From: Mesorhizobium liriopis
Lineage (GTDB): Bacteria; Pseudomonadota; Alphaproteobacteria; Rhizobiales; Rhizobiaceae
DNA length: 64,000 nucleotides
Assembly (NCBI RefSeq): GCF_024053505.1
Contig: NZ_JAMXQS010000008.1
Location: forward strand, 248,001 to 312,000
Reading direction: 5' to 3'
Shown: positions 25,394 to 29,612 of the stretch, piece by piece
Position numbering within the stretch: position 1 is the first letter of the stretch
Layout of the letters: every line of letters starts with the position of its first letter
The notes under the pieces: generated by a model
Databases searched by the model: none
What the model saw: the letters and a program-made list of their open reading frames with translations, nothing else
Told to the model about the DNA's origin: nothing
Position numbers and translations under genes: made by a program

Positions 25394-25485
25394 TGCAACC
25401 GGAAGCCGGCATGCCGGCGAAACATGGTTAATGGACAAGCCCCGCATCGGCGTCGGGGGACGCCTCGCTTCAAAGGGGACGATCC

Positions 25486-25941
25486 ATGCCTGCCTTCTCA
25501 TTCTCGCGACTGATCAATCTTGCCGGTGCCGTTCTGATCGGCGCGGCCACTCTTCTCGGTGCTGGCCGTGCCGAGGCGGCCAGCCAGATGGTGGCCCGGA
25601 TCAGCATCTCGGCGCAGCGAATGCTCGTGCTGGTCGATGGGCGTGAGGCGTTCAGCTGGAAAGTCTCGACGGCCGGCCGCGGCTACAGCACGCCGACCGG
25701 CACGTTCAGGCCGACGCGGCTGCACGAGATGTGGTATTCGCGCCAGTACGACAACGCGCCGATGCCGCACTCCGTCTTCTTCTTTCATGGCTATGCGGTG
25801 CATGCGACCGATGCGGTGAAGAAGCTCGGTCGCCCGGCCTCGCATGGCTGTGTCCGGCTTCACCCCGACAATGCGGCCGACTTCTTCACGCTGGTCGAAA
25901 CCTTCGGGATCGCCAACACCGCGATCGTGATCACCGAGTGA
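25486..25941 (+). CDS. Exported L,D-transpeptidase (YkuD domain)
   Basis: Periplasmic peptidoglycan cross-linking enzyme. The 151-residue protein has a signal peptide (cleavage expected after AGRAEA, about residue 28) and then a YkuD domain with the catalytic motif ASHGCVRLHPDNA. The His and Cys of the active site are both present. It is a minimal enzyme without a LysM or peptidoglycan-binding module. AAGGGGAC precedes the ATG. It converges with the CdsA-like gene, four bases apart. Confidence 0.92.
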   Translation: MPAFSFSRLINLAGAVLIGAATLLGAGRAEAASQMVARISISAQRMLVLVDGREAFSWKVSTAGRGYSTPTGTFRPTRLHEMWYSRQYDNAPMPHSVFFFHGYAVHATDAVKKLGRPASHGCVRLHPDNAADFFTLVETFGIANTAIVITE

Positions 25942-25945
25942 GGCG

Positions 25946-26875
25946 TCACGTCCAGCCGTAACGGACGAGGTGGAAGAAGATCGGGGCTGCGAAGACAAGG
26001 CTGTCCACGCGGTCCATCATGCCGCCATGGCCCTCGATCAGGTGGCCCCAATCCTTGACGCGGCGGTCGCGCTTGATGGCGGACGCCACCAGCCCGCCGA
26101 GCGTGCCCATCAGGCAGGAGACCAGGGCGACGCCACCGGCCTGAAGCGGCGTGAAGGGGGTGAGCCACCAGAGTGTCGCACCCAGAAGGCTCGCCAGAAC
26201 AAGACCGCCGATCAGCCCTTCCCACGTCTTGGACGGCGACACGCTCGGCGCCAGCTTGTGGCGGCCAAACAGCTTGCCCGACACATATTGCAGCACGTCG
26301 CTGCCCTGCACCACGACCAGAAGAAAGGCGACGAGCAGAACCTGTCTGCCCTCGAAACCGGCAATCGGCAGCCAGACGAGGGCCGCGATATGCGAGATGC
26401 AATAAACGGTCGCCATCACGCCCCATTGCTGCTCGGCCACGCGATAAAGAAAGTTCTCCGTGTCGCCGCGCAACACGGTCAGCGCCGGCAGGAACAGAAA
26501 GCACCAGACCGGCACGAAGATCGCGAAAAGCCCGTACCAGTTCGTCCAGACCAGCCAGTACTGGATGGGGAGGGCGACGAAGAAAAGCGCGAAGAGCGGC
26601 CAGTGGTCGGCGCGGCGGGACACCGTCAGCGTCATGAACTCGCGGAGAGCCGCGAACGAGACCAGCGCGAAAAGCCCGATCACCGTGTAGGGGCCGGCAA
26701 GGATGGCGGCCGCCAGCACCGCGATCATCACCCACCATGCCTTGATGCGCTCGTCGAGATTGACCAGCGTGGCGTCGGGCGTTCCCGCCCGGGCAGACAG
26801 AAGGGTGGAAACGAGGCTCGCCACCGTCAGCGTGCCGAGCAGGCCGCCGAACAGATATGTGGTCTCAGGCATCAT
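25946..26875 (-). CDS. Phosphatidate cytidylyltransferase-like membrane enzyme (CdsA/YnbB-like)
   Basis: The 309-residue polytopic protein has about eight hydrophobic segments and the CdsA-family C-terminal region VSPSKTWEGLIGGLV ... SAIKRDRRVKDWGHLIEGHGGMMDRVDS. This includes the Lys and the two Asp of the CTP/metal site (SxxKRxxxxKDxGxxxPGHGGxxDRxD, with Glu for Pro). It would make CDP-diacylglycerol from phosphatidate. It is the third gene of an operon with an acyltransferase and a CDP-alcohol phosphatidyltransferase, the same set as E. coli ynbA-ynbB. It probably is a paralogue, since the housekeeping cdsA usually sits with frr and uppS. Confidence 0.85.
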   Translation of the reverse strand: MMPETTYLFGGLLGTLTVASLVSTLLSARAGTPDATLVNLDERIKAWWVMIAVLAAAILAGPYTVIGLFALVSFAALREFMTLTVSRRADHWPLFALFFVALPIQYWLVWTNWYGLFAIFVPVWCFLFLPALTVLRGDTENFLYRVAEQQWGVMATVYCISHIAALVWLPIAGFEGRQVLLVAFLLVVVQGSDVLQYVSGKLFGRHKLAPSVSPSKTWEGLIGGLVLASLLGATLWWLTPFTPLQAGGVALVSCLMGTLGGLVASAIKRDRRVKDWGHLIEGHGGMMDRVDSLVFAAPIFFHLVRYGWT

Positions 26876-27531
26876 GAGCGGGGCTCCTTGGGGTCGAGCG
26901 CGGCAAGGCTCAGTCGGGCGCGTTCAAGAAAGGCACGGCGTTCCTCGTCTGGTTCGGGCCTGATCGGCGCGCCGAAAACCACGCGGCAGAGAAGCGGCAC
27001 GGGCAGGAATTCGCCCTTGGGCAGCACGCGCGACATGTTTTCGATGAAGCAGGGCACGAGCTCGATTTCGGGGCGCGCCACCGCGAGATTGTACAGACCG
27101 GAGCGGAAGGGCAGCAGGCCCTTTTCCGTTTCGGTGTTGCGGGTGCCTTCGGGGAAGATGATCAGCGAGCAGCCGCGATCGAGCACGTCGAGCATCGCCT
27201 GCATGGGATCGCCCATTCGCTTTTCCCTGTCGCGCTCGACGAGCACGGAGCGTAACAGGTCGGTCGCGATGAAGCGGCGCACAGCGCTCTTGCTCCAATA
27301 GTCGGCTGCCGCCAACGCGCGGGTGCGCAACCGTTCGGCGGGCGGCAGGCAGGACGAAAGCAGAATGAAATCGCCGTGGCTCGAATGATTGGCGAAGTAA
27401 ATCCGCTGTTTCGCCGAGGGTGCCGTGCCCGCCCAGACGGGGCGGACGCCGGTGATCGTGCGGGCGAGGCCGGCAAAGCCCGCGGCAGCCGTGCGCCGCA
27501 GCGCGCGCGCGAAAAAACTCTCGGTGCTCAT
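26872..27531 (-). CDS. Lysophospholipid acyltransferase (PlsC family)
   Basis: The 219-residue protein has the acyltransferase motif I NHSSHGDF (NHx4D) near residue 56, a block II/III region with FPEGTRNTET near residue 133 and a later PEIELVPCFIENM block. It would transfer an acyl group to lysophosphatidate or a related lysolipid at the inner membrane. Start at the ATG at 27531, overlapping the upstream phosphatidyltransferase stop by four bases; its own stop overlaps the CdsA-like start in the same way. Confidence 0.87.
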   Translation of the reverse strand: MSTESFFARALRRTAAAGFAGLARTITGVRPVWAGTAPSAKQRIYFANHSSHGDFILLSSCLPPAERLRTRALAAADYWSKSAVRRFIATDLLRSVLVERDREKRMGDPMQAMLDVLDRGCSLIIFPEGTRNTETEKGLLPFRSGLYNLAVARPEIELVPCFIENMSRVLPKGEFLPVPLLCRVVFGAPIRPEPDEERRAFLERARLSLAALDPKEPRS

Positions 27532-28127
27532 GCCTGGACGCCCAGGCGAACGCGGTTGGCGACGGTGGCGAGCGCGAGGAGCGTCAGAAGCGGAAAGGCG
27601 ATCAGGAAGATTTCGGTGAAGTCGATGCCGAAGCCGACAAGAAAGCCCAGCGCGCCGATGCCGAAGGCACGGTCGCTCTTGCCGAGCGGCCCGGCATAGT
27701 TGCGCCCAACGCCCGCGGCCTGGCCCAGCACGCCGGCGAACTCGGCAAGAAAGCTCACGAAGATGAAGCCAAGCACGGCCCAGGGCTGGAAGGGCGCGAC
27801 GAAGAGGAAGGGCAAAGCGAGGGCCGCGTCGGACACGACGTCGCACAACTCGTTGAGATATTGGCCGAGCTTTGAGGCCTGTCGGTGCTCACGGGCCAGC
27901 ATCCCGTCGATGGCGTTGAGCGCCATGCGGATGAAGAGGAAGAGCGGCAGCAGCAGAAAGAGCGGACGGATGTCACCGGCAAAGGAAAGCAGTGCCCCAA
28001 GCGCGACCGACAGGCCGGCAGCACCCAGCGTTACCTGATTGGCGGTGACGCCGGCGTCGGCCAGCCGCTCGGTGAGCGGACGCAAGAGGCCCTGGAAGCG
28101 TGGCTTGAGTTGATAAAGAGTCGCCAT
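27528..28127 (-). CDS. CDP-alcohol phosphatidyltransferase family protein with altered motif
   Basis: The 199-residue membrane protein has five to six hydrophobic segments and the CDP-alcohol phosphotransferase motif DGMLAREHRQASKLGQYLNE, followed by LCDVVSD. Compared with D1xxD2GxxARx8GxxxD3xxxD4, D2 and D4 are present but D1 (NAID) and D3 (QYLN) are both Asn. These two aspartates normally bind the metal ions, so the reaction or the metal may differ. It is the first gene of the three-gene lipid operon and faces the TetR gene across two palindromes. Confidence 0.82.
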   Translation of the reverse strand: MATLYQLKPRFQGLLRPLTERLADAGVTANQVTLGAAGLSVALGALLSFAGDIRPLFLLLPLFLFIRMALNAIDGMLAREHRQASKLGQYLNELCDVVSDAALALPFLFVAPFQPWAVLGFIFVSFLAEFAGVLGQAAGVGRNYAGPLGKSDRAFGIGALGFLVGFGIDFTEIFLIAFPLLTLLALATVANRVRLGVQA

Positions 28128-28186
28128 GTTGCGGGTCCTTTTCCCTGTCGCGAGCCTTGACTTGGGCTCCGTCCGACACCAGATAT

Positions 28187-28220
28187 TGAACGACGTTCAT
28201 ATTTATATGAACATTGTTCA
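28187..28220. promoter_or_regulatory. Two tandem TetR-type operators
   Basis: TGAACGACGTTCA at 28187-28199 and TGAACATTGTTCA at 28208-28220 share the form TGAAC-N3-GTTCA. Their centres are 21 bases apart, two helical turns. They lie between the lipid operon (start 28127) and the TetR gene (start 28236), the second one only 15 bases before the TetR ATG, so autoregulation and operon control are both likely. Confidence 0.75.
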
Positions 28221-28235
28221 GGAAGCGCAAGCCCC

Positions 28236-28850
28236 ATGGTCGGAAAAGTTTCGGAACGCCGTGAAGCCCTGCGCCAGACCCTGGTCGAGGTCGCCGAGAG
28301 CATGGTCGCGCATGAGGGCTTGAGCGCCCTGCGCGCCCGCGATGTGGCAAAGGAGGCGGGCTGCGCGCTGGGTGCCATCTACCTCCATTTCCCCGACATG
28401 GACGCGCTGGCCGCTGCCGTGAATGCCCGTACGCTGCAGCGTTTGGAGGGGGAGGTCGCCGAAGCCTTCGAGGCGGCGCAGGCGCGCGACAACCCCAAGC
28501 GCGCGCTCGCAACGCTCGGCACGACCTATGCGCAGTTCGTCTGGGAAAACCCGAAGCTCTGGTCGGCGATCTTCGAACTCGGCTTTCGGCAGGGGGAGGC
28601 CGCCGAGCCGCCGCAGTCGCCCGAGCATTTCCGACTGCTCGCGGCCATCGTCGCACCCTTGCGCGCGCTGCTGCCCGATGGCGATCCGGCGGTGATCGAG
28701 GCGCATGCGCGGGCGCTGTTCTCTGCCGTGCATGGCATCGTGTCGCTCAGCCAGCAGCGCCGCTTCATGGCCGTCGAGCGCGATCAGGTGGCGGGCGAGA
28801 TCAGCTTCATCGTCAACGCCTTCTGCGACGGCGTATCGGCCTCAAAGTGA
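28236..28850 (+). CDS. TetR/AcrR-family transcriptional regulator
   Basis: The 204-residue protein has an N-terminal TetR helix-turn-helix (residues about 8-55, LSALRARDVAKEAGCALGAIYLHFPDMDALAAAV) and a ligand-binding C-terminal domain with the TetR_C shape (ENPKLWSAIFEL, HARALFSAVHGIVSLSQQ). The ligand is unknown; a lipid precursor or membrane stress cue is plausible from the divergent lipid operon. Its end overlaps the convergent dehydrogenase gene by nine bases. Confidence 0.9.
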   Translation: MVGKVSERREALRQTLVEVAESMVAHEGLSALRARDVAKEAGCALGAIYLHFPDMDALAAAVNARTLQRLEGEVAEAFEAAQARDNPKRALATLGTTYAQFVWENPKLWSAIFELGFRQGEAAEPPQSPEHFRLLAAIVAPLRALLPDGDPAVIEAHARALFSAVHGIVSLSQQRRFMAVERDQVAGEISFIVNAFCDGVSASK

Positions 28851-29612
28851 AACGGTGAGCGCGCCGTCCACATAAAGCGTGTGGCCGTTCACGAAGCTCG
28901 ACGCGTCGGAGGCGAGGAAGATGCAGGCGCCGACCAGTTCCTCGACTTCGCCCCAGCGCCCGGCCGGCGTGCGCTTCTCCAGCCATTCCGTGAAAGCAGG
29001 GTCTTCGACCAGCGCCTTGTTGAGCGGCGTCTTCATGTAGCCGGGCGCAATCGCATTCACCTGCAAGCCATGCTTCGCCCAATCCGTCGCCATGCCCTTG
29101 GTGAGGTTCGCAACCGCACCCTTGGTCGCGGTGTAGGGTGCGATCGAAGTTCGGGCGAGGGCCGCCTGAACCGAGGCGATGTTGACGATCTTACCCTTGC
29201 CGCGACCGATCATATGGCGCGCCACCGCCTGGCCCGCATGGAAGACGGAAGCGATATTGGTCTGCAACAACGCCTCGAAGCGGTCGGCGGGAAAGTCTTC
29301 GAGCGCCGCGCGATGCTGCATGCCGGCATTGTTGACGAGAATGTCGATGGGCCCGCGATCCCGCTCGAAGCCGTCGATGGCCTCGCGTACGGCATCATGC
29401 TTGGTGACATCGAAAGAAATGGCCTGAACGCCGAGCCCGTCCGCCTTCAGCGTCGCCACCGCCTCGGCCAGCTTGGTTTCATCCCGGCCGTTGAGCACGA
29501 CACTCGCACCGGCACGGGCAAGCCCGCGCGCCAGCGCAAGCCCGATGCCTTGCGAGGATCCCGTCACCAGCGCGGTGCGATGGGTCAGATCGAACAGGCT
29601 GAGATCGGGCAT
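28842..29612 (-). CDS. Short-chain dehydrogenase/reductase (gluconate 5-dehydrogenase-like)
   Basis: NAD(P)-dependent oxidoreductase of 256 residues. Cofactor motif TGSSQGIG near residues 17-24, the NNAG motif near residue 92, and catalytic Ser with Y-x3-K (SIAPYTATKGAVANLTKGMA) are present. The C-terminal VNGHTLYVDGALTVSL is typical of sugar-acid SDRs such as gluconate 5-dehydrogenase. It is followed upstream by a sugar isomerase-like gene nine bases away, so both act probably on one sugar or sugar acid. The exact substrate cannot be read from the sequence. Confidence 0.88.
   Translation of the reverse strand: MPDLSLFDLTHRTALVTGSSQGIGLALARGLARAGASVVLNGRDETKLAEAVATLKADGLGVQAISFDVTKHDAVREAIDGFERDRGPIDILVNNAGMQHRAALEDFPADRFEALLQTNIASVFHAGQAVARHMIGRGKGKIVNIASVQAALARTSIAPYTATKGAVANLTKGMATDWAKHGLQVNAIAPGYMKTPLNKALVEDPAFTEWLEKRTPAGRWGEVEELVGACIFLASDASSFVNGHTLYVDGALTVSL

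Follow-up and report, generated by a model that had tools for sequence, protein, structure and literature searches.

An asparagine-marked clade of YnbA-like CDP-alcohol phosphatidyltransferases and a candidate accessory phospholipid operon in Mesorhizobium liriopis

CDP-alcohol phosphatidyltransferases (CDP-APs; CDP, cytidine diphosphate) make the head groups of most phospholipids. The window analyzed here, a 64,000-nucleotide stretch of the Mesorhizobium liriopis genome (contig NZ_JAMXQS010000008.1, positions 248,001 to 312,000), encodes a YnbA-like CDP-AP in which two of the four aspartates of the family signature, D1 and D3, are replaced by asparagine. By sequence comparison, this Asn pair is an inherited clade mark, carried by a group that includes Escherichia coli YnbA and is divided into two branches, and the window protein belongs to this variant clade of the PF01066 family rather than being a standard member. 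Its gene stands with those of a PlsC-type acyltransferase and a YnbB-like, CdsA-family cytidylyltransferase, opposite a divergent TetR-family regulator, and the three genes probably build an extra membrane lipid. We tentatively propose, with a confidence that stops a little short of even, an accessory phospholipid operon, all of whose reactions we infer, in which YnbA would operate with a rebuilt metal site on a phosphorylated, non-inositol acceptor and would be kept under TetR repression.

The three lipid genes are chained by 4-base stop/start overlaps (ynbA/plsC at 27528-27531, plsC/ynbB at 26872-26875), an arrangement that an earlier, sequence-only reading had already pointed out. All four products score above their Pfam gathering cut-offs: YnbA with PF01066 (30.5 bits, cut-off 22), PlsC with PF01553 (64.9 bits, cut-off 23), YnbB with PF01148 (224.8 bits, cut-off 24), and the regulator with TetR_N (38.9 bits, cut-off 24), to which a TetR_C_33 match is added. 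The likeness to ynbAB seen in that reading is true homology, with 49% identity between the window and E. coli YnbA proteins and 40% between the YnbB proteins. The signature D1xxD2GxxAR..GxxxD3xxxD4 contains four aspartates, described as absolutely conserved in CDP-APs (PMC4634129; this and the other papers cited are represented by extracts). The window YnbA departs from it, reading N71-A-I-D74-G-M-L-A-R-x8-G-x3-N92-x3-D96: D1 and D3 are Asn, as the earlier reading held and as the translation and the AAC codons confirm, D2 and D4 are Asp, and the other signature positions are retained. Its phrase ‘altered catalytic aspartates’ is fair for the two metal ligands but not for the proposed catalytic base, D4, which is intact. 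A pseudogene interpretation was dropped in view of the open reading frames and the fixed state of the residues.

Table 1. Features of the YnbA locus, in window coordinates
Feature	Position	Strand	Basis or comment
YnbA-like CDP-alcohol phosphatidyltransferase, 199 aa	27528..28127	minus	Pfam, motif, identity to E. coli YnbA, AlphaFold2 fold matches
PlsC-type acyltransferase, 219 aa	26872..27531	minus	Pfam, motifs
YnbB-like CdsA-family cytidylyltransferase, 309 aa	25946..26875	minus	Pfam, identity to E. coli YnbB, conserved residues
TetR-family regulator, 204 aa, divergent	28236..28850	plus	TetR_N and TetR_C_33
Asn71 codon (D1 of the CDP-AP signature)	27915..27917	minus	Reads AAC on the minus strand
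Asn92 (D3) and Glu93 codons	27849..27854	minus	Asn92 codon (27854-27852) reads AAC; Glu93 is a second clade mark
Arg153 codon	27669..27671	minus	One alignment pairs it with Arg155 of mycobacterial PIP synthase, which binds inositol phosphate; the other places it one residue off
Arg192 codon	27552..27554	minus	Pairs with Arg195 of mycobacterial PIP synthase in both alignments
Putative TetR operator 1, palindrome TGAAC-GAC-GTTCA	28187..28199	.	Recurrence at related operons and TetR homologues
Putative TetR operator 2, palindrome TGAAC-ATT-GTTCA	28208..28220	.	Recurrence at related operons and TetR homologues

The Asn pair is not confined to the window. E. coli K-12 YnbA has Asn at both D1 and D3, and the order N-D-N-D was read in 82/82 aligned rows (80 loci, E. 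coli and the window), where the 80 loci are the best 80 of 466 relatives found with two peptide patterns, one of which, LFIRMALN, carries Asn at D1, so that D1 was partly selected and D3 was not. Because E. coli K-12 YnbA and all 80 loci share the pair, chance or sequencing error is excluded. A protein search of 398 Pseudomonadota genomes, which is without this selection bias at D1, returned 60 matches at E ≤1e-6 in 59 genomes: 55 with N-D-N-D, four with D-D-D-D, and one with A-D-N-D (G344, locus L168). These comprise 37 YnbA-type proteins (E ≤1.9e-29; one of them, G168, has an internal stop), 19 proteins of a second branch within the group characterized by asparagine at D1 and D3 (N..N), and the four with Asp at both (D..D); as the query was YnbA and the threshold E ≤1e-6, the second branch is under-sampled. 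This branch reads A[VILM]E where YnbA-type proteins read ARE, the Arg of the AR pair being replaced by Val, Ile, Leu or Met. The YnbA-type distribution is patchy, with a match in 9/61 genomes of the relatives search (the M. liriopis genome included), and the match in G051 lies in two pieces in different frames. Within E. coli, at least 80% of ynbA was matched in 4210 of 5426 complete genomes; in strain 26561 (NZ_CP027118.1:2420385-2421767), ynbA is apparently split by an IS1A element.

In an 87-row tree, with 68 rows classed as N..N and 19 as D..D, the N..N rows fall on one side of a single branch (support 100/97), the trait changes once compared with 17.5 times in shuffles, and the window and E. 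coli YnbA proteins sit in the same 44-row group (support 100/98). The tree has a midpoint root only, several D..D rows are long, L168 was counted as N..N despite its Ala at D1, and the window protein is present twice (L089 and own_YnbA). The M. liriopis paralogues L005 and L007, each with Asp at D1 and D3, are absent from the tree, because the motif pattern did not catch their spacing or AR pair. The D..D rows, gathered mainly through their similarity to YnbA, cover the family incompletely, and the rows are non-independent; four loci without a CDP-AP match (L105, L107, L108, L109) gave no motif, and L101 and L122 are the same gene. Whether the Asn pair marks a subfamily, a question raised by the sequence-only reading, is answered in the affirmative by the 80/80 loci, the 55/60 phylum matches and the single tree group. 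L168 itself is a diverged YnbA, with AVE in place of ARE; among the N..N members read, it alone lacks Asn at D1.

The two asparagines are accompanied by fixed acids. An acid at D3+1 is found in 65/65 N..N rows (63 Glu, 2 Asp) versus 0/18 D..D rows, Glu after the AR/AV pair in 65/65 versus 0/18, and Asp at D4+4 in 65/65 versus 2/18, with L168 and three rows without a stored motif omitted from these counts. In the YnbA clade, the fixed acids are Glu93 (D3+1), Glu80 and Asp100. We read this pattern as that of a metal site that would be rebuilt but still working, in which nearby acids accompany the loss of two aspartates.

Structurally, the AlphaFold2 model of the window YnbA (mean predicted local distance difference test score 92.5) has the six-helix CDP-AP fold, and the 19 best-ranked structure matches listed are all CDP-AP enzymes. 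The best are phosphatidylinositol-phosphate (PIP) synthases (5d91: Z 20.1, root-mean-square deviation 2.6 Å over 187 residues, nearly the whole length), with weaker matches to phosphatidylglycerol-phosphate (PGP) synthase (Z 12.3) and phosphatidylserine synthase (Z 12.2); the best PDB match of the YnbA profile is also a PIP synthase. In PIP synthase, D4 is the likely base and two arginines bind the phosphate of inositol-phosphate (PMC4634129); D1-D3 hold one metal (PMC4634129), or two magnesium ions lie among the four aspartates (PMC9385802). The arginines paired with these two in the window protein (R153 and R192, Table 1) are invariant in both branches, bar one gapped YnbA row. One alignment is preferred, as it sets A-Y-x-R of the second branch against S-Y-I-K of PIP synthase. 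In it, the PIP synthase residues Ser132 and Lys135 correspond to Glu129 and Gly132 in 43/43 YnbA rows and to Ala and Arg in 24/24 second-branch rows; the profile alignment places them on Gly132 and Gly135, and neither alignment gives YnbA a Ser or Lys there. Since the phosphate-binding arginines appear kept while the residues near the inositol ring have changed, the likely acceptor is an anionic, phosphorylated alcohol distinct from inositol-1-phosphate. The window YnbA resembles the mycobacterial and Renibacterium PIP synthases (PDB 6h53/6h59, 6wmv, 5d91) in its six-helix fold (Z up to 20), D2, D4 and the acceptor arginine R192, with the second arginine, R153, pairing in one alignment only, but differs from them in the Asn at D1 and D3, the acid at D3+1, the missing Ser132/Lys135 and an overall identity of ∼20%.

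The partner enzymes retain their conserved catalytic-type residues. The window PlsC keeps NHx4D and FPEGTR, and the HX4D/EGTR motifs are present in 65/66 rows; in YnbB, D193, SPxKT, KR, KD, HGG and DRxD, all conserved with CdsA, occur in 67/67 rows. Both proteins nonetheless score below the NCBIfam cut-offs of the CdsA equivalog (98.2 vs 385) and a PlsC subfamily (45.6 vs 102.95). Across the 80 loci, some of which lie on short contigs, YnbC, YnbD, PlsC and YnbB are all present in 53, PlsC and YnbB only in 11, as in the window, and YnbC and YnbD only in 13; one locus each has YnbB with YnbC and YnbD, PlsC only, or none of the four. By gene content, the window locus is a short version of an operon whose longer form also encodes a hydrolase/methyltransferase and a phosphatase, and the ‘complete operon’ of the sequence-only reading holds for the three-gene core but overlooks this longer form. 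YnbC joins a hydrolase to a PF12147 methyltransferase domain, and YnbD matches DSPc above and PAP2 below the cut-off. Searches of the M. liriopis genome with the single E. coli YnbC and YnbD sequences gave no match, a query from which distant copies would escape. In G045 and G051, tetR faces a methyltransferase domain alone, followed by YnbA, YnbB and PlsC. The long operon at L009 also encodes, between YnbD and PlsC, a 145-residue protein (L009:11759-12193) that is hydrophobic by eye and has no Pfam or NCBIfam match; many long-form loci have a similar-sized gap at this place.

The Asn pair travels with PlsC and YnbB, as both partners are found in 23/24 second-branch loci (L170 has neither) versus 0/12 D..D loci, seven of which have only ∼1.5 kb of flank. 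Second-branch loci (e.g. L117, L169, L180) share with the window the Asn at D1 and D3, the acid at D3+1 and these two partners, differ in the replaced Arg of the AR pair, and gave no YnbC or YnbD match. The ynbABCD genes of E. coli K-12 (b1408-b1411) share the N-D-N-D motif and homologous YnbA and YnbB; the run from ynbA to ynbD has no PlsC gene, whereas the window has PlsC and a divergent TetR gene, and no ynbC or ynbD.

The M. liriopis genome has six CDP-AP genes besides the one in the window (seven matches in all), each with Asp at D1 and D3, and it encodes another CdsA-family protein elsewhere, so that the window set seems to supplement the core lipid genes. Outside the window, on contig C20 (L191:2870-4790), an inositol-1-phosphate synthase gene is followed immediately, on the same strand, by a canonical D..D CDP-AP gene; the two are a likely PIP pair, and this CDP-AP is a better PIP synthase candidate than YnbA. 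Purifying selection on ynbA is seen in the 40 most alike pairs, with ratios of nonsynonymous to synonymous substitution (dN/dS) of 0.02 to 0.46, below 0.2 in 37/40; the pairs share genes and are non-independent.

Regulation appears to involve a short palindrome. The stretch between the two start codons contains TGAACnnnGTTCA twice, the only copies in the window (0.01 expected), and the whole genome has four, these two included, versus one site for a reversed control pattern; the only tandem pair is here. Sites stand directly before related operons at L009 (3), L033 (2), G015 (2), G045 (2) and G051 (1), and singly, away from lipid genes, at L085, L169 and L189. A search of twelve genomes with the window TetR (E ≤1e-10) gave seven matches, G045 and G051 among them, with between one and four sites next to the start of tetR in every case; five of the seven are at 29 to 39% identity, and G029 and G310 come from one genus. 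Near the operons of L033 and G015, which do carry sites, no match to the window TetR was found. The recurrence of the putative operator at homologous operons and beside TetR homologues makes the TetR switch of the sequence-only reading likely, and supports autoregulated repression by TetR from these putative sites, perhaps linked to the state of the envelope. A PspA gene lies opposite such a TetR in G029 and G310. The loci L197:378-2115 and L198:7-1740 each show a TetR homologue that has three sites and faces a PspA/IM30 gene, followed in L197 by a gene with a YiaAB domain.

In the proposed pathway, PlsC would acylate lysophosphatidate and YnbB would activate the resulting phosphatidate as CDP-diacylglycerol (CDP-DAG), with which YnbA would phosphatidylate the hydroxyl of a phosphorylated alcohol (X-P), the products being phosphatidyl-X-phosphate and cytidine monophosphate. 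Where the operon is longer, this product would lose its phosphate to the phosphatase YnbD and have its head group modified by YnbC, while in the window TetR would repress both the operon and its own gene from the two TGAACnnnGTTCA sites. A CdsA-like effect is on record for E. coli YnbB, whose overproduction raises MPIase (PMC6362211).

Several observations weigh against this pathway. Overproduced YnbB failed to complement a cdsA knockout (PMC6362211, in the extract), so that bulk CDP-DAG synthesis by YnbB is not assured. YnbD failed to complement strains short of PGP or undecaprenyl-pyrophosphate phosphatases and carries no assigned function in the extract of PMC7413402. The window has no phosphatase partner, and its end product would therefore keep the phosphate or need another enzyme. 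Two of the accompanying acids are not unique marks, since Asp at D4+4 also occurs in two D..D rows and Glu after AR in the mycobacterial PIP synthase, which lies outside the 18 D..D rows. The two alignments disagree at the acceptor site, the profile alignment setting R153 one residue off R155 and pairing Gly132 with Ser132. The median dN/dS over all 1331 kept ynbA pairs, many of them near saturation, is 0.39. Finally, the literature matches listed, all open-licence papers, include no YnbA biochemistry and no description of a YnbA reaction or of the Asn-pair clade.

The loss of two of the four metal aspartates in nearly every member read would also suit a pseudoenzyme that performs no transfer and instead binds CDP-DAG or regulates YnbB, and the second branch additionally lacks the AR-pair Arg, which helps hold the alpha-phosphate in PIP synthase (PMC9385802). 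We consider this unlikely: there is little or no variation in D2, D4, both glycines, the cytidine-contacting N30 and T33, or the two acceptor arginines, and the asparagines are fixed rather than drifting, with acids beside them. In favor of YnbA being a PIP synthase are its best profile and fold matches, which are PIP and archaetidylinositol-phosphate synthases. The archaetidylinositol phosphate synthase profile (NF040950) is its best NCBIfam match, at nearly full length, yet the score of 78.5 bits against a cut-off of 180 does not make it a member, and the PIP synthase profile (NF045883) reaches 41.5 bits against 170. The D..D enzyme encoded beside the inositol-1-phosphate synthase gene, which has the Ser and Lys of the inositol site, is a separate candidate, and for that reason the PIP synthase assignment was set aside; moreover, no inositol-phosphate synthase match was obtained in the E. 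coli control genome, yet E. coli has ynbA. We regard this assignment as the faintest of prospects.

A backup PGP synthase using glycerol-3-phosphate would have an acceptor that is both phosphorylated and universal, and YnbA does match TIGR00560 weakly (24.6 of 109.1 bits). This role is nevertheless distinctly improbable given the fold match of Z 12.3 versus 20.1 for PIP synthase, and given that two paralogues in the same genome, L001 and L002, which we take to be PgsA-like, have canonical D..D motifs. CDP-APs normally use a hydroxyl nucleophile, and a GlcNAc-PP-diacylglycerol product (GlcNAc, N-acetylglucosamine) would need attack by a phosphate, which counts against an MPIase-like glycolipid anchor as the purpose of the pathway and a sugar-1-phosphate as its acceptor. 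Such an acceptor would suit the two phosphate-binding arginines, and the rise of MPIase on YnbB overproduction points the same way; deletion of ynbB, on the other hand, did not significantly change MPIase (PMC6362211, in the extract), and ynbB is reported as dispensable for phosphoglyceride-linked enterobacterial common antigen (ECA-PG) in the extract of PMC8609368. An anchor pathway of this kind thus seems highly improbable.

It is possible, although we would sooner doubt than assert it, that the N..N clade and its PlsC and YnbB partners across Pseudomonadota would make, through a rebuilt metal center, a head-group phospholipid missed by lipidomics, which in the window lineage would be induced through a TetR whose kin stand beside PspA. 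The group is of interest as a whole clade that departs from the four-aspartate rule at two shared positions, with its catalytic base preserved and a link to two lipid genes. Because E. coli K-12 ynbA belongs to it, an operon of a model organism without an assigned reaction gains a testable candidate, CDP-DAG plus a phosphorylated alcohol, and the putative operator offers a handle on when such operons are switched on.

A scan of positions 25400-28900 gave no sigma-70-type promoter, and four terminator-like sites versus 3.2 expected. Beyond the 3′ end of ynbB, a small YkuD L,D-transpeptidase gene (25486-25941) converges on the operon across a 4-base gap.

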